From contig JAGVMP010000012.1 in the NCBI GenBank assembly GCA_020053735.1, positions 62,001 through 126,000 on the forward strand: a stretch of 64,000 bases of DNA, given 5' to 3'. This document shows, piece by piece, positions 4,287-60,896 of this stretch (the first letter of the stretch is position 1; every line of letters starts with the position of its first letter). The position numbers and the translations under genes were made by a program. The notes below the pieces were generated by a model. That model saw only the letters and a list, made by a program, of their open reading frames with translations. It was not told the DNA's origin and made no database searches. The DNA is from Pseudomonadota bacterium. GTDB taxonomy: Bacteria > Pseudomonadota > Gammaproteobacteria > Burkholderiales > Methylophilaceae.

Positions 4287-4338
4287 AAAATACATGCTCT
4301 GGAAGCCAGTATCCATGCGGCTCACAGGGCACGTATTT
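4287..4338. repeat. dispersed palindromic repeat, copy A (possible terminator)
   Basis: Copy of a family whose consensus is an arm ATGCTCTG, a core close to AAGCCAATATCCATGCGG and an arm CAGAGCAT. Here the arms extend to AAAATAC / GTATTTT with G-U pairs, giving a long hairpin just after the quinoprotein stop codon, where it may act as a transcription terminator. Confidence 0.8.
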
Positions 4339-10744: not shown

Positions 10745-12073
10745 TTACGTATTACATACCAACTCAGCACAAGCTAGCCCGCTACGTACTGCACCTTCTA
10801 TAGTAGCAGGGTAGTCTGCATAAGTATAATCGCCAGCCAAGTATAGCCCCGCATAAGAGGTTAAGTTAGCGGGTCGCGGCAAATTTACGTCACAGGAAAA
10901 GGTCGCGCGCTTCTCCGCAATTACTTTGTGCCATAGCGGTTTAATCAGTTGCGGAAAAGCATCGCGTAGCTCTTGCGCCACCCGCAATGCCAGCGTATCT
11001 TGTGTGTATTGTTGATGTTTACCCTCTGCACTAATAATCACCGCCATAAGACCGCTTTGGCCGCATAATATGCCACGATCAAACACCCACTGACTTACCC
11101 CACCGACCATGCCCAGCATAGGTTTTGGCAGTGTGATGTCGCGTTCATACTGCAAATAAATCGTGTAGATGGGTTGATAATCATAACGATCGGTTTGTTG
11201 TGCGGCAAATTCCAGCTTGGGTAGTTCGGTAATGACATTCCTTAGCCGTACTGGCGAAATGGCAACAATGACATGACTCGCTTTAAATTGTGCCTCTTTG
11301 GTGTACACAACGTAGCCATTTTTGTCTGTTTTGATACTTTTGACGCGCTGATTAAGTACTATTTTTGCACCGTGTTTTTTGAGATAACTTTCAATCGGCT
11401 GCGAAAATAGCTGCGATAAATCCTGCTTCGGCAGCAAAAAATCGCTATTCTGCTTGCTGCTAAATGTGTCTTTTAGCACATTTAAAAATATTTTGCTGCT
11501 GGCCAGGTTAATTGGCGTGTTAAGTGCGGCGAGACATAATGGTTCCCACAACAGCTTAACCACGTTGCTAGATTGTTGATTCTGTTGTAAGAAATCAGCA
11601 AGTGGGCTATCTATAGCAAGCTGGTATTCACTGTTTTTTAGGTGCAACATAAACCGAACAACTGCGATGCGTTCACGCCAACTCAGACCTTGGCAGCTTA
11701 AGAATCCAAATAGTTGGTTTAAGGGTGCAGGTAAATAACTAGGTATATTCAGTTTAAATACGGTTTTATTGCCATCGCGCTGTGCTAAATTTTGTATTTC
11801 TAGACTTAACGGTATGCGCATAAAGGCATCATGCGCATTAATGCCAACTTGCTCGAGTAGTTTTAAAGTTTCATGATAAGCCCCCAGCATAATATGCTGG
11901 CCGTTGTCTAGTTGTACGACTTGGCTGTTAAATTCAATGGCGACGCTACGTGCACGACCACCTAATTGACCAGCGGCTTCTAGCAGTATCACTTTGATAC
12001 CTCTGGAAGCCAATGTGGATGCGGCTGCCAGGCCTGCCATTCCCGCTCCAATAATAATCACGTGTTTAGCCAT
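10745..12073 (-). CDS. hpnE: hydroxysqualene dehydroxylase (squalene-associated FAD desaturase)
   Basis: FAD-dependent amine-oxidase-fold enzyme of 442 aa that converts hydroxysqualene to squalene. The N-terminal dinucleotide motif is IIGAGMAGLAAASTLASRG with LLEAAGQLGGRARS. The C-terminal FAD motif is YLAGDYTYADYPATIEGAVRSG. It is last in hpnC-hpnD-hpnE, the three-enzyme route from two farnesyl diphosphates to squalene. Only 7 bp separate it from hpnD. Confidence 0.93.
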   Translation of the reverse strand: MAKHVIIIGAGMAGLAAASTLASRGIKVILLEAAGQLGGRARSVAIEFNSQVVQLDNGQHIMLGAYHETLKLLEQVGINAHDAFMRIPLSLEIQNLAQRDGNKTVFKLNIPSYLPAPLNQLFGFLSCQGLSWRERIAVVRFMLHLKNSEYQLAIDSPLADFLQQNQQSSNVVKLLWEPLCLAALNTPINLASSKIFLNVLKDTFSSKQNSDFLLPKQDLSQLFSQPIESYLKKHGAKIVLNQRVKSIKTDKNGYVVYTKEAQFKASHVIVAISPVRLRNVITELPKLEFAAQQTDRYDYQPIYTIYLQYERDITLPKPMLGMVGGVSQWVFDRGILCGQSGLMAVIISAEGKHQQYTQDTLALRVAQELRDAFPQLIKPLWHKVIAEKRATFSCDVNLPRPANLTSYAGLYLAGDYTYADYPATIEGAVRSGLACAELVCNT

Positions 12074-16199: not shown

Positions 16200-16222
16200 G
16201 GCTAGATGAGTATTTTTGCAGG

Positions 16223-16260
16223 TGCTCTGAAAGTCAATATCTAAGGGACTCGCAGAGCAT
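16223..16260. repeat. dispersed palindromic repeat, copy B
   Basis: Diverged 38 bp copy (TGCTCTGAAAGTCAATATC to CGCAGAGCAT) between the convergent cupin 2 and glnD genes, flanked by T-rich tracts. It could terminate both transcripts. Confidence 0.75.
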
Positions 16261-16285: not shown

Positions 16286-18877
16286 TTACAAGCGCAACAG
16301 CTCTTCTTCTAATATAGTGAGTTGCGTAGTTGCTAACGTTGCGCCTTGTTTACCAGAAACCAAAAAACTATCTTCGGCGCGATTACCCAGTGTATTGATT
16401 TTGGCATTGTGCAAATCTATCCCCAGTTGCAAAAATATAAACGCAACTTTTGCTAACAGACCAGGGCGGTCACCTGTCACTATCTCAATCGTGTGATATA
16501 TCGTGTGTTGATGATTTTGTTGTTCAGCATAAATGTTAATTTGCGTGCTAAACGGTGTGTGTTTTACTTGCCTGCTGATTCGACCTTCTAACGGCGCTTC
16601 TATATCGGAAGTGATGATTTTTTCAGTTAATTCGTTTTCAATAAATTTTAATAGGCCACTGTAACTAACTGACTTACCTGATTGATCTAAAACACTAAAA
16701 CTATTCAAAGCATAGCCATGTTGTGTGGTGTATATTCTGGCTTCTACAATGCTGTAGGCCATTCGGTCAAAAAAGTTACAAATGCGTGCAAACAAATCAT
16801 CTTGGTCTTTGCTGTAAATCATGACTTGTATGCCATCACCATTGGGACTTAAGCGCGCACGTACAATCGGCTTGTCGCTCTGCACATGGGGGGTAAGCAA
16901 GCGGCTTTGCCAAGCGATTTCGTCGCTTTCATAACGCGTAAAATAGGCAGTACCCAGCTTACTCCAAAGCGCTTGGTAGGATTGCGTGCTCAGGCCGTAC
17001 TTATTCAGTTTATCAGCCGCTTCATCTTGTCTGATATGCGCAATTTGTTGCGCATTAAAACTTTCATCATTCAGCACACGTCTGGTTGCGTAGAACAAGT
17101 TCTCTAACAACCGAGCTTTCCATGCATTCCAAACGGCAGGGCTGGTGCCACGAATATCAGCTACTGTCAATAAATACAAGGCATTCAGCCGTGTTTCTGT
17201 TTTAACAAGCTGCGCAAATTGCATAATCACATTGGTATCAGATAAATCAGATTTTTGTGCGGTACTGGACATTTTTAAATGTTGCTCAACCAGCCAAGCA
17301 ACTAAATGCGCGTCCTCTTTGGGCAGGCCGTGAAGCTTGCAAAAGCGCTTTGCATCTTGCGTGCCTAATGTAGAGTGATCTCCACCACGGCCTTTGGCGA
17401 TATCGTGAAACAGCGCAGCAAGATAGAGCAGGTGAGGTTTTTCGAAAGCCGCAAACAATTGACTGCACAGGGGAAACTCGTGCTTCAACTCTGGCTTGGC
17501 AAATCGACGTAGGTTAGCCAGTACGTTTAAAATATGCTCGTCCACGGTATAAACATGAAATAAGTCGTGCTGCATTTGACCAACAATTTTGCCAAAAGCA
17601 GGAATGTATTGACCTAAGATGCCATAACGATTCATGCGGCGTAAAGAATGGTTTACGCCTCTAGATTGTGACAATATATTGATAAACAGTGCTTTATTTT
17701 CGTTAGATTCTCTAAATTCTCGATTCACCAACTTTTTCACGCGCTGCAATTGGCGTATTAAATTGGCGCCCATGCCTTCTAATTCGGGGTGTTGCTGTAG
17801 CAGTAAAAAGCTTTCTAAAATTGTTGCTGGCTGCTGTTGCAAAGTACGTGCTGTTTTGGCTTGCAGCCACTGATCATGCGCTTCAAAATTGGCGCTTACC
17901 GGCGTGATTGTAGCAACAGTTTTAGTTAAAGTAGTTTCTAAAGTTTTAACAAGTATCTCATTGATTAAACTAATATACTTTACGCTTCTGTAGTAGCTCT
18001 GCATAAGCTGTTCACTGGCGCGTTTACGTGGATTGGTAACAAACTCCAAATTAGCTGCTAATTCATTTTGAAAATCAAATAGCAACCGATCTTCGCGTCT
18101 TTTGGCCAAGTAGTGTAGACGTATACGTAGCGTTTGCAAATTGCGTTGGTGGCGTTTTACTTGACGCAACTCTAAGCTGGAAATAAGTTGATTTTTGGCT
18201 AGTTCCTGCCAACTTTTACCTAAACCTTGGCTGTGCGCCAGCCACAAAATCATGTGCAAATCGCGCAATCCGCCTGGGCTCTCCTTAATATTAGGCTCTA
18301 AATTATAGGCAGTATCGTTAAACTTAGCGTGACGATTGTTTTGCTCTTTAAATTTGGCTGCAAAAAATTCGGCAGGGCGCATTTGTGCATTAACTGCACT
18401 TAAAAATGCATCAAACTGTGCTTTGCTGCCCGCCAAATAACGTGCTTCTAGTAGATTTGTTTGTACCGTCACGTCATTGCTCGCTTCGTTCAAACATTCA
18501 TGCTGCGTGCGCACGCTGTGACCAACATTTAAGCCAATGTCCCATAATAGGCCAATCAGCGCTTCAATTTTTAGGTTTTCATCTTCGGTAAGTTGCTCGG
18601 GCAGTAAAATGAGCAAGTCGATATCGGAATATGGAAATAGCTCGCTACGGCCATAACCACCTACGGCGATTAAGCCACAGTCTTCATGGATATTGGCTCG
18701 CAGCCATACCGTTTTAAGTAGCTTGTCGATAAGTTGCGTTTGATTTTTTAGTAAACGTGCTGGGTTTTTATGCAGTAAAAAGTCAGCTTCAATGGCAGCT
18801 TGCTGGGCTTTTAAATCGCTGCGTAGCGCTTGCAACTCACTGCGAGAATTTGGGCTGACGGGTAGGGCTGCTGACAT
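16286..18877 (-). CDS. glnD: [protein-PII] uridylyltransferase / uridylyl-removing enzyme
   Basis: Nitrogen sensor that uridylylates and deuridylylates PII proteins, 863 aa. The nucleotidyltransferase motif is GGYGRSELFPYSDIDLL (73-89). The HD phosphohydrolase motif is LFHDIAKGRGGDH (HD at 491-492). Two ACT domains fill the last 180 residues (PNGDGIQVMIYSKDQDDLFA; EIVTGDRPGLLAKVAFIF). All parts appear intact. It is immediately downstream of map (7 bp), the usual order in this class. Confidence 0.97.
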   Translation of the reverse strand: MSAALPVSPNSRSELQALRSDLKAQQAAIEADFLLHKNPARLLKNQTQLIDKLLKTVWLRANIHEDCGLIAVGGYGRSELFPYSDIDLLILLPEQLTEDENLKIEALIGLLWDIGLNVGHSVRTQHECLNEASNDVTVQTNLLEARYLAGSKAQFDAFLSAVNAQMRPAEFFAAKFKEQNNRHAKFNDTAYNLEPNIKESPGGLRDLHMILWLAHSQGLGKSWQELAKNQLISSLELRQVKRHQRNLQTLRIRLHYLAKRREDRLLFDFQNELAANLEFVTNPRKRASEQLMQSYYRSVKYISLINEILVKTLETTLTKTVATITPVSANFEAHDQWLQAKTARTLQQQPATILESFLLLQQHPELEGMGANLIRQLQRVKKLVNREFRESNENKALFINILSQSRGVNHSLRRMNRYGILGQYIPAFGKIVGQMQHDLFHVYTVDEHILNVLANLRRFAKPELKHEFPLCSQLFAAFEKPHLLYLAALFHDIAKGRGGDHSTLGTQDAKRFCKLHGLPKEDAHLVAWLVEQHLKMSSTAQKSDLSDTNVIMQFAQLVKTETRLNALYLLTVADIRGTSPAVWNAWKARLLENLFYATRRVLNDESFNAQQIAHIRQDEAADKLNKYGLSTQSYQALWSKLGTAYFTRYESDEIAWQSRLLTPHVQSDKPIVRARLSPNGDGIQVMIYSKDQDDLFARICNFFDRMAYSIVEARIYTTQHGYALNSFSVLDQSGKSVSYSGLLKFIENELTEKIITSDIEAPLEGRISRQVKHTPFSTQINIYAEQQNHQHTIYHTIEIVTGDRPGLLAKVAFIFLQLGIDLHNAKINTLGNRAEDSFLVSGKQGATLATTQLTILEEELLRL

Positions 18878-23058: not shown

Positions 23059-23098
23059 ATGCCCTGCAAGTCGCATGGGTGTTGGTCTGTAGGGCAGA
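23059..23098. repeat. dispersed palindromic repeat, copy C (inverted)
   Basis: Reverse-orientation copy (arms GCCCTGCAAG and CTGTAGGGC) between the convergent acyltransferase and TonB-receptor genes. A terminator role is plausible. Confidence 0.75.
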
Positions 23099-25638: not shown

Positions 25639-25677
25639 ATGCCCTGCGAGGCAATATCCATGCGGTCTGCAGGGCAG
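25639..25677. repeat. dispersed palindromic repeat, copy D
   Basis: Arms ATGCCCTGC and GCAGGGCAG around a core GCAATATCCATGCGG, one base shorter than the consensus core. It lies in the divergent region between the small exported protein and rpsB. Confidence 0.8.
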
Positions 25678-41969: not shown

Positions 41970-42000
41970 ATTGGCTATTGTACGTAATTAACAATGCGCC

Positions 42001-42079
42001 GTCATTGCGAGGAATAAAATGACGAAGCAATCCATGTGCACTTTTTGGATTGCCGCGTCGCTACGCGCCTCGCAATGAC
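42001..42079. repeat. MITE-like palindromic element
   Basis: Perfect 12-bp terminal inverted repeats GTCATTGCGAGG (42001-42012) and CCTCGCAATGAC (42068-42079). Inside, GCAATCC pairs with GGATTGC. The whole 79 bp folds into a hairpin and encodes nothing. The GTCATTGCGAGG ends recur in dispersed repeats of many bacteria. Confidence 0.85.
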
Positions 42080-42131
42080 AGCTAAACATTTCAATTAATT
42101 TGATAGTTAGTTAAGCACGCCGTTAAAAGAC

Positions 42132-42170
42132 ATGCTCTGCAAGCCAATATCCATGCGGCCTACAGAGCAT
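42132..42170. repeat. dispersed palindromic repeat, copy E
   Basis: Best-preserved copy: ATGCTCTGCAAGCCAATAT continuing to CCATGCGGCCTACAGAGCAT, with perfect 8-bp arms ATGCTCTG/CAGAGCAT. It lies downstream of the DUF4139 gene, in a 265-bp gap also holding the 79-bp palindrome. Confidence 0.85.
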
Positions 42171-50940: not shown

Positions 50941-51894
50941 ATGAGTAAATTTGCATTTTTCTTTCCCGGCCAAGGCTCACAATCAGTCGGCATGATGGCA
51001 GGGTTTTTGAGTGAATCTGGTGATAACGCCATCATTAAACAAACCTTCGTTGAAGCATCTGACATCCTAAAAACCGATTTTTGGGCGATGGCGACGGAAC
51101 CGAATGAGCTACTGAATCAAACTCAGCACACGCAACCACTGATGCTAACAGCAGGTATTGCCACTTATCGGGCTTATATGCAAGCAGCCCAAAATAAAAG
51201 TGCCCCGCAAGCCAATATCCATGCGGGTCATAGCCTAGGTGAATATACTGCTTTGGTGGCTGCGAATGCTTTGAGCTTTGCCGATGCATTACCGCTAGTA
51301 AAATATCGTGCGGAAGTAATGCAAAGCGCCGTACCGGAAGGGGTAGGCGCAATGGCGGCCATATTAGGCTTGGATGACGATATTGTGCGTACAGTATGCG
51401 CAGAAGCGGCACAAAATGAAATATGTGAAGCAGTGAATTTTAATTCACCCGGTCAAGTAGTGATTGCAGGCAATAAAGCAGCGGTGGAACGGGGCATGGA
51501 AATTGCCAAGGCAAAAGGCGCAAAACGCGCACTGCCGCTACCCGTCAGCGTGCCTTCGCATTGCGCATTGATGAAGCCTGCGGCAGAAAAGCTAGCAGAG
51601 TACTTAAAAACGGTGACCATCAGCACACCACAAATTCCTGTGATTCATAATGCAGATGTAGCGTCATACAGTGAGTCGGATAAAATTAAAGACGCATTGG
51701 TGCGCCAATTGTATTCACCTGTGCGCTGGGTAGAAACAGTGCAGGCGATTCACACACAAGGCATCACAAACGCAGCAGAGTGCGGCCCAGGCAAAGTATT
51801 AGCTGGTTTAACGAAAAGAATCGTCGCTGAGTTTCCATGTGTGGCATTCACCAGCAACGAAGCGGTTTTAGAGTTTATTCAAAATAATAGTTAA
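50941..51894 (+). CDS. fabD: malonyl-CoA:ACP transacylase
   Basis: Loads malonate on ACP; 317 aa. FAFFFPGQGSQSVGMMAGF, the nucleophile elbow AGHSLGEYTALVA, VNFNSPGQVVIAGNKAAVER, LPVSVPSHCALMKPA and AECGPGKVLAGLTKRIV are all present. Directly before the elbow the DNA 51201-51226 matches the dispersed palindromic repeat and encodes SAPQANIHA; the loop here is about 4 residues longer than in E. coli FabD. The enzyme otherwise looks intact. Confidence 0.97.
   Translation: MSKFAFFFPGQGSQSVGMMAGFLSESGDNAIIKQTFVEASDILKTDFWAMATEPNELLNQTQHTQPLMLTAGIATYRAYMQAAQNKSAPQANIHAGHSLGEYTALVAANALSFADALPLVKYRAEVMQSAVPEGVGAMAAILGLDDDIVRTVCAEAAQNEICEAVNFNSPGQVVIAGNKAAVERGMEIAKAKGAKRALPLPVSVPSHCALMKPAAEKLAEYLKTVTISTPQIPVIHNADVASYSESDKIKDALVRQLYSPVRWVETVQAIHTQGITNAAECGPGKVLAGLTKRIVAEFPCVAFTSNEAVLEFIQNNS
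51201..51226 (+). repeat. dispersed palindromic repeat, partial copy inside fabD
   Basis: TGCCCCGCAAGCCAATATCC ATGCGG differs by one base from a composite of intergenic copies, and GCAAGCCAATATCCATGCGG is identical over 20 bp to copy E. The right arm is not recognisable (GTCATAGCC). It is in frame within the fabD coding sequence. Confidence 0.75.
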
Positions 51895-54452: not shown

Positions 54453-55304
54453 ATGGCGCATACGCATTTATATCTTGTAAACGGCAGTTTTAATCAGGCT
54501 ATCTCGCCGTTTGATCGCGGCTTCGCTTATGGCGACGGCGTGTTTCGTACCATTAAGATGGTCGGTGGTTTGCCAGAGTACTGGCCGCAACATTATCAAA
54601 AACTGGTGGCCGATTGCGCCGCAATTAACATCGTCTGTCCCAGCGCAGAATTGTTGATGAGTGATTTATCACAACTATTTCTAGCCGATTCTGAAACTGA
54701 AAACCATGCGGCAGTGGCTAAAATTATCATCACACGCGGCGAAGGTAATCGCGGCTATACACCGCCCGCCATTACGGCACCAATGCGTGTTGTATTGAAA
54801 TCGGATATGCCAGAATACCCCGAAAAACGATTCAGCGATGGTATTAACTTAACGGTGTGCGAAACGCGCTTGGCTGCGCAACCTAAACTAGCTGGCATCA
54901 AGAGTCTAAACCGCCTAGAAAATGTGCTGGCACGCATGGAGTGGAACGACTCGACGATTGCCGATGGCATCATGCTGGATATGAACGATAACGTCATTGA
55001 ATGCACAGCAGCTAATATTTTTGCCCGCTTTGATGATACATTGATTACTCCTGACTTGCGGCAATGTGGAATCGCTGGCATAACTCGGCAACGCATTACT
55101 GAGCTTGCACCCACACTGTCGCTTAATATCTCTGTAGAAATGTTTGGTTTGGAAAAATTGTGCCGAGCAGATGAGGTGGTGATTTGCAGCAGCCTGTATG
55201 GGGCGTGGCAAGTAAAAACCGTGCAAGTTAGCGAGACTCAACAAAAAAGTATTAAAGCAGGCGCTCTGGCAATCAATATTCGTGCGGCTCTCAGAGCATT
55301 ATAA
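54453..55304 (+). CDS. pabC: aminodeoxychorismate lyase
   Basis: PLP enzyme of fold type IV, 283 aa, forming p-aminobenzoate for folate. YLVNGSFNQAISPFDRGFAY GDGVF-type start, the PLP Lys in LAGIKSLNRLENVLARMEWN, and DMNDNVIECTAANIFARF are typical. A branched-chain or D-amino acid aminotransferase is the fold alternative; the position between fabF and mltG fixes PabC. Confidence 0.93.
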   Translation: MAHTHLYLVNGSFNQAISPFDRGFAYGDGVFRTIKMVGGLPEYWPQHYQKLVADCAAINIVCPSAELLMSDLSQLFLADSETENHAAVAKIIITRGEGNRGYTPPAITAPMRVVLKSDMPEYPEKRFSDGINLTVCETRLAAQPKLAGIKSLNRLENVLARMEWNDSTIADGIMLDMNDNVIECTAANIFARFDDTLITPDLRQCGIAGITRQRITELAPTLSLNISVEMFGLEKLCRADEVVICSSLYGAWQVKTVQVSETQQKSIKAGALAINIRAALRAL

Positions 55305-58395: not shown

Positions 58396-58436
58396 GCAGC
58401 CCTGAAAGCCAATACCCATGCGCCTTACAGAGCATG
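58396..58436. repeat. dispersed palindromic repeat, copy F
   Basis: Core GAAAGCCAATACCCATGCG with arms GCCCTG and TACAGAGCAT, just after the pilZ stop and 32 bp before tatD. Confidence 0.75.
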
Positions 58437-60647: not shown

Positions 60648-60896
60648 ATGGAAAAATTCAATGTTTGGAAAATTTTAGTATTATTTACTTTCGTCCTTTG
60701 TGTAGGATGTAATGGGTCAAAACCTCAAGGTGGTACCGACACAGGAGCTGGTGGTACTCAGGCAGAGGTCTCTGGTACAGGAGATGCTACTAGTGGCGCT
60801 GGGACAGGAACCGGCGGTACAGAGACAGGTGGTGCTGGTACAGGAGATGCTACTAGTGGTGCTGGGACAGGAACTGGCGGTACTCCAGAAAAATAG
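60648..60896 (+). CDS. small Gly/Thr-rich repeat lipoprotein
   Basis: Protein of 82 aa. A signal ends with lipobox LCVGC (Cys21), followed by a low-complexity region with two copies of GTGDATSGAGTGTGGT. AAAGGAG lies 8 bp before the ATG. The DNA repeats are 47 bp with two differences and a 63-bp period. No family recognised. It might be cargo or flanking DNA of the transposon that begins to the right. Confidence 0.6.
   Translation: MEKFNVWKILVLFTFVLCVGCNGSKPQGGTDTGAGGTQAEVSGTGDATSGAGTGTGGTETGGAGTGDATSGAGTGTGGTPEK
60774..60883 (+). repeat. direct repeat in the lipoprotein gene
   Basis: Unit 60774-60820 recurs at 60837-60883 (47 bp, two C/T changes). Period 63 bp, equal to 21 codons, so copy-number change would keep the frame. 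Confidence 0.85.

Follow-up and report, generated by a model that had tools for sequence, protein, structure and literature searches.

The fabD gene of a Methylotenera genome (2.44 Mb; G000 below, with G001-G014 denoting the other Methylotenera genomes) contains, within its reading frame, a run of bases that also lies in an intergenic palindromic repeat of the same window, the 64,000-nt stretch of DNA analysed here (Table 1). This raises the question of how a dispersed DNA repeat came to specify residues of a conserved enzyme. A sequence-only reading of the window had proposed that a mobile or copied repeat became part of the gene, and the observations behind that proposal stand. The 20-mer GCAAGCCAATATCCATGCGG is exact at both 51207-51226 and 42139-42158; the bases at 51201-51226 (TGCCCCGCAAGCCAATATCCATGCGG) fit the family composite (TGCYCTGCAAGCCAATATCCATGCGG) at 25 of 26 positions; and they are in frame, coding for QANIHA immediately before GHSLGEY in a loop that we take to be about four residues longer than that of E. 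coli FabD. Chance is ruled out as the source of the match, with six matches at up to three mismatches in the window and a mean of 0.01 in 100 shuffles.

Table 1. Motif copies and accompanying features in the 64,000-nt window
Feature	Positions	Strand	Remarks
Intergenic palindromic copy, convergent genes	4294..4332	+	2 mismatches to 20-mer; orientation reversed in G001
Weak possible copy, antisense in hpnE (10745-12073, minus)	11998..12036	+	4 mismatches; may be a chance match
Weak intergenic copy past glnD 3' end	16222..16260	+	6 mismatches, arms kept
In-gene copy in glnD, sense	18682..18701	-	3 mismatches; codes RANIHE
Weak intergenic copy, convergent ORFs	23059..23097	-	6 mismatches, arms kept
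Intergenic palindromic copy	25639..25677	+	2 mismatches
Second dispersed-type palindrome (CGTCATTGCGAGG...CCTCGCAATGACAG)	41998..42082		37-nt arms, 73% complementary; adjoins the 42132 copy
Intergenic palindromic copy	42132..42170	+	Holds exact 20-mer; loop inverted at same site in G001
fabD, ACP S-malonyltransferase	50941..51894	+	TIGR00128, E 1.7e-103
A-rich left flank within lengthened fabD loop	51193..51200	+	Prolongs match: 30/34 positions from 51193
In-gene copy in fabD (left arm and core)	51201..51226	+	Exact 20-mer; 25/26 to composite
Weak copy in last codons of pabC (54453-55304)	55261..55299	+	6 mismatches, arms kept
Intergenic copy	58397..58435	+	3 mismatches
Pair of adjoining 63-nt repeat units	60730..60855		75% alike

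The repeat belongs to a large family. A search of G000 with its 18-base core (AAGCCAATATCCATGCGG) at up to three mismatches recovered 205 copies, or about 0.08 per kb, with 103 on the forward and 102 on the reverse strand, as against 1 and 0 for a reversed-pattern control. The motif thus has no strand bias, and its copies, 17 of them exact and 49 with one mismatch, are spread across many contigs. Among 149 genomes (G000 and 148 relatives) the 18-mer is amplified only in Methylotenera, where core counts define motif-rich species (G000 205, G001 146, G013 101, G004 98, G010 93, G002 and G009 69 each, G005 58, G006 57, G003 32) and motif-poor ones (G007, G008, G011, G012 and G014, 6-15); other genera have at most 18. 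An exact 16-mer (GCCANTATCCATGCGG) is found in 10 of the 15 Methylotenera genomes; all five motif-poor species lack it. In a FastTree phylogeny of concatenated plsX-fabH-fabD-fabG, nine motif-rich species form a clade (support 0.94 and 0.95) and the motif-poor species a neighbouring clade (support 1.00). A tree of FabD alone nests the motif-poor clade inside the motif-rich species; the longer four-gene alignment was preferred, and G006 is in neither tree. A known RNA family was rejected as the identity of the motif, Rfam at gathering thresholds having returned only a tRNA in the window. The exact 26-mer is absent from viral contigs, and one intergenic copy searched against plasmids gave a single weak match (E 0.7). 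Among open-access papers, none mentions both Methylotenera and an uptake sequence, and none contains the 14-mer CAATATCCATGCGG.

The anatomy of the family was studied in 93 copies with at most two mismatches in loci fetched from G000. No ORF of at least 100 aa covers 54 of these; 35 lie in ORFs of 150 aa or more, and the other 4 fall between these limits. By simple gene calls, 37 are in genes, 29 in convergent gaps, 24 in codirectional gaps, 1 in a divergent gap and 2 at locus edges. For comparison, the window itself has 3 convergent, 22 codirectional and 6 divergent gaps. Of the intergenic copies, 53 have a gene end beside them, and in 34 of these a stop codon precedes the copy by 15-60 nt. 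From this distance and the number of convergent gaps it follows that intergenic copies are placed where terminators sit. The motif can be written roughly as AAAA-n4-ATGCYCTGC-AAGCCAATATCCATGCGG-CTTnCAGRGCA-n4-TTTT, with the intergenic consensus AAAA....ATGCCCTGC AAGCCAATATCCATGCGG CTTnCAGGGCA....TTTT. The best intergenic example could form a 13-bp stem with the loop AATATCCATGC, and a T-tract follows the stem (T at +33 to +35). Stems fold in all four intergenic copies tried (z -2.2 to -5.9), and the fabD copy gave z -0.94; covariation between the arms was not significant. By these sequence features the intergenic copies are terminator-like, with a predicted stem and a T-tract soon after the stop codon.

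Copies within genes have another character. Their strongest regularity is one of frame: 24 of the 35 read as x-L-Q-A-N-I-H-A, giving ALQANIHA-like peptides, and the remainder comprise 8 antisense copies, six of which share a frame (A-W-I-L-A), and 3 that are read in further frames. All six frames of the core are free of stop codons. The 24 same-frame copies preserve the A-tract, left arm and core but not the right arm; at least seven of the nine outer pairs are retained in only 6 of the 35 in-gene copies versus 31 of the 54 intergenic ones. The host genes include hscA, a TsaC-type gene, hrcA, pth, fmt, purL, bioA, clpB, moaA, dnaG, trpD, prmC, folC, rnr, dnaE, polA, waaF, recJ, ddl, fabD and glnD, as named from a scan of 30 proteins in which two lacked a match at 1e-10 and some others matched only under the curated cut-off. 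The glnD orthologue of G010 carries the exact 16-mer, coding QANIHA, and peptide readings point to further in-gene copies in secA and trhO of G013, rnr of G010, and rnr, trhO and nagZ of G004.

Whether such copies were inserted or written into existing codons was examined in 13 of the 35, picked for clear function, whose orthologues were aligned from motif-rich G001, G004, G013 and G010 and motif-poor G007 and G011; RecJ was not found in G013, nor PrmC in G004. The alignments show codon replacement: GLQASIHAGFE in MoaA of G000 faces GLQASIDAGFE in G007, ALEASIHAVRG in ClpB faces ALEAAVTAVRG, LQPAWILAAKAD in Ddl faces LKAAYALAAEAD, and QANIHAGHS in FabD faces QPSIFAGHS. In the 26 alignments to G007 and G011, a gap falls within the six core residues once (FabD against G011, a four-residue difference that can be placed several ways), and within the span from -10 to +15 residues ten times. 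The mean motif score, out of 26, is 23.9 in G000, 22.5 in G001, 21.4 in G013, 21.3 in G004 and 21.2 in G010, against 15.2 in G007 and 15.6 in G011, where the background, taken as the best score on the opposite strand, is 14.4 (sd 1.3). The sense synonymous differences that set G000 apart from G007 and G011 number 46, of which 44 are toward the motif, none away and 2 neutral, a tally that is inflated because G000 was chosen for matching. For the same reason the scores of the other motif-rich species make a fairer test, although these species have ancestry in common with G000. As judged from these alignments, the genic cores compared very probably arose by substitution at existing codons and not by insertion.

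The fabD gene itself conforms to this. Its motif is lineage-specific: neither the five motif-poor Methylotenera species (e.g. GKQPSIFAGHS) nor the other genera read have it in fabD, and among the genomes read no distant relative was found that has the same fabD codons and no such intergenic repeats. The fabD of G001 has the entire core with zero extra residues (GGPQANIHAGHS), and partial matches of unchanged length occur in G010 (GGLQPSICAGHS) and G003 (GLQASVHAGHS). The motif is missing from fabD in motif-rich G002, G005 and G009, G005 having five residues inserted inside the site. The loop of G000 is four residues longer than that of its sister species G001; these residues sit just upstream of the core, where the G013 loop is longer too, and they form an indel distinct from the core itself. 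The longer A-rich loops raise the extended 34-position match to 30 in G000 and 29 in G013, versus 27 in G001 and G004, and this outer extension, consisting of the left arm and A-tract, may have been copied from another copy. Because the core arose by substitution at existing codons, fabD captured no mobile repeat at the core. The part of the original proposal that survives is therefore the membership of the stretch in the family of the intergenic palindromes, while its insertion at the core does not. Nor is fabD a singular capture: it is one among about three dozen in-gene copies in the 93 examined.

We favour, at a probability of about one half, the explanation that fabD holds one copy of a motif that resembles an uptake signal and has spread by drive. 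Cells of one Methylotenera clade, throughout whose genomes the motif has spread, would prefer to take up and recombine motif-bearing DNA in natural transformation, so that alleles nearer to the motif would accumulate, as proposed for the USS of Haemophilus and the DUS of Neisseria. Between genes the motif is a palindrome placed like a terminator; within genes, on this explanation, its left arm and core were written into existing codons by substitution, chiefly at places where the protein can accept ALQANIHA or, antisense, AWILA. The reader of the motif would be a type IV pilin.

Like the USS of Pasteurellaceae and the DUS of Neisseriaceae, the Methylotenera motif is repeated genome-wide and has no strand bias; its role in uptake is inferred. 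Unlike them, it is longer and looser, with palindromic arms. USS and DUS occur at about 1 per kb, and the roughly tenfold lower density of the Methylotenera motif (about 0.08 per kb) counts against uptake. USS and DUS are spaced more regularly than random placement would give; for the Methylotenera motif the evidence from spacing is mixed. Its coefficient of variation is not lower (1.31 versus 1.14 for random placement, P 0.87; 51 copies on 6 contigs), though short gaps are scarce in the same set (1 of 45 below 1.5 kb versus 12% expected, P 0.018). According to one study (PMC1626085), USS pass the same gap test, prefer non-coding DNA, have many copies in genes and lack strand bias; the Methylotenera motif is similarly enriched between genes, with many in-gene copies formed by substitution. 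The same study reports that perfect USS and DUS copies outnumber those with a single mismatch, the reverse of the 17 exact and 49 one-mismatch 18-mers seen here, which we also count against uptake. A second study (PMC2346458) describes an in-gene orientation bias and a debated role as terminators, paralleled here by the bias of frame in genes and the terminator-like intergenic copies.

The competence machinery gives a divided picture. ComEC was detected in 13 of the 15 Methylotenera genomes, DprA in 15 (14 over the cut-off) and PilM in 14, and these genes do not separate motif-rich from motif-poor species, again a point against uptake; the two genomes in which ComEC was not found, motif-rich G004 and G006, are incomplete. 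The motif-rich G013, a 1.4-Mb MAG that is 87% complete, has ComEC and DprA and gave neither a pilin (PF07963) match nor a strong one to PilM. It seems to have lost type IV pili, and either the loss is recent or it counts against uptake; the motif copies of G013 show no clear excess of decay over those elsewhere in the genus. A 220-aa pilin-like protein of G000 (A370) exists in a Cys-containing type in six motif-rich species (G000, G001, G002, G004, G009 and G010) and in another type in motif-rich G005 and the five motif-poor species; G003, G006 and G013 are outside this comparison. Its mean identity is 81% among motif-rich pairs (21 pairs) and 63% among motif-poor pairs (10), where the concatenated Fab proteins give 87% and 92%. 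The split into types may reflect phylogeny only, and on these comparisons A370 is a candidate receptor that serves only as a lead. A second family in the receptor comparison (B373), for which 3 of 13 loci gave no sequence, is probably a mixture of paralogues.

Among the alternatives, the one that survives best, though we consider it rather unlikely, is that the motif is a binding site for a putative chromosome-organising, replication or termination protein. The motif would then be maintained by selection acting site by site, and not by an uptake bias, as hairpins between genes and as plain sites within them. The greater length and looseness of the motif relative to uptake motifs, its persistence in the apparently pilus-less G013, the terminator-like placement between genes and the lack of even spacing all accord with such a site. 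It would, however, require strong selection at hundreds of separate sites, altering residues of enzymes such as FabD, ClpB and RecJ, and the equal use of both strands and the scatter of copies over many contigs also speak against it.

An explanation closer to the original proposal, in which a mobile palindromic element (MITE- or RPE-like) was inserted or copied to give the intergenic copies, and perhaps the outer parts of some genic ones, is unlikely, and it draws on the evolution of the intergenic sites. Twelve intergenic copies of G000 were searched for in orthologous 3' regions, a score of at least 21 defining a copy, and one was present in 7 of the 10 G001 regions, in 3 of the 11 from G010, and in none of the 22 from G007 and G011. 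The loop is reversed in G001 at two window sites, 42132-42170 (against L341) and 4294-4332 (against L333); since the flanks are conserved at the former, the loop was inverted, as if turned round between its arms. An insertion is likely at locus L089, where G000 has a spacer of about 140 nt and four relatives have one of about 10-50 nt. Three G000 loci (L073, L077 and L085) bear a long form of about 110 nt, with outer arms GATGCCCTGCAA / TTGCAGGGCATC or near, and an inner hairpin ACCAGCTnnAGCTGG adjoining the core; the G010 site orthologous to L085 has the short form. The long form may be a mobile parent or a composite, and the short and long forms have their outer arms in common. Mobility is also favoured by arms that form a conserved palindrome without significant covariation, by the longer fabD loops of G000 and G013 that prolong the match, and by the ten alignments with a gap near but not in the core. 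Against these points, the genic cores in all 13 genes match homologous codons, with no insertion to account for them, relatives have partial matches of the same length, and viral contigs lack the exact 26-mer. Rickettsia palindromic elements, which lengthen host proteins by insertion, are likewise palindromic repeats found between genes and in frame within them; the genic core here instead replaces existing codons, with no in-frame lengthening at the core. The short, high-copy intergenic hairpins recall REP elements with their RAYT transposase, yet about 40% of the examined copies are in genes, and a search for the Y1 transposase family (PF01797) found members in 2 of the 15 Methylotenera genomes and none in G000, on which ground RAYT was rejected as the mover of the motif.

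A last alternative is that the family of intergenic terminators is real but the matches inside genes, that in fabD among them, are a codon-usage coincidence at ANIHA-like peptides. This is highly improbable and already disfavoured by the clade comparison. Some motif-poor orthologues are motif-like to begin with (MoaA LQASIDAG scores 19 in G007 and G011, and FolC 18). Against it, there are 205 copies and one in the control, genes unrelated to one another share the same codons over about 27 bases, and the motif-poor sister species score near background.

Returning to uptake-driven spread, the broader proposition, which we advance tentatively and at somewhat less than even odds, is that a Methylotenera clade evolved a self-DNA recognition signal independently of Neisseriaceae and Pasteurellaceae, in the form of a long, hairpin-borne uptake motif that has recoded dozens of core enzymes, including FabD. 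If true, this would be a third independent case, and the sister motif-rich and motif-poor species would allow the origin, drive and cost of such motifs to be followed directly. Whatever the function of the motif, conserved enzymes have been rewritten in step with a motif at the level of DNA.
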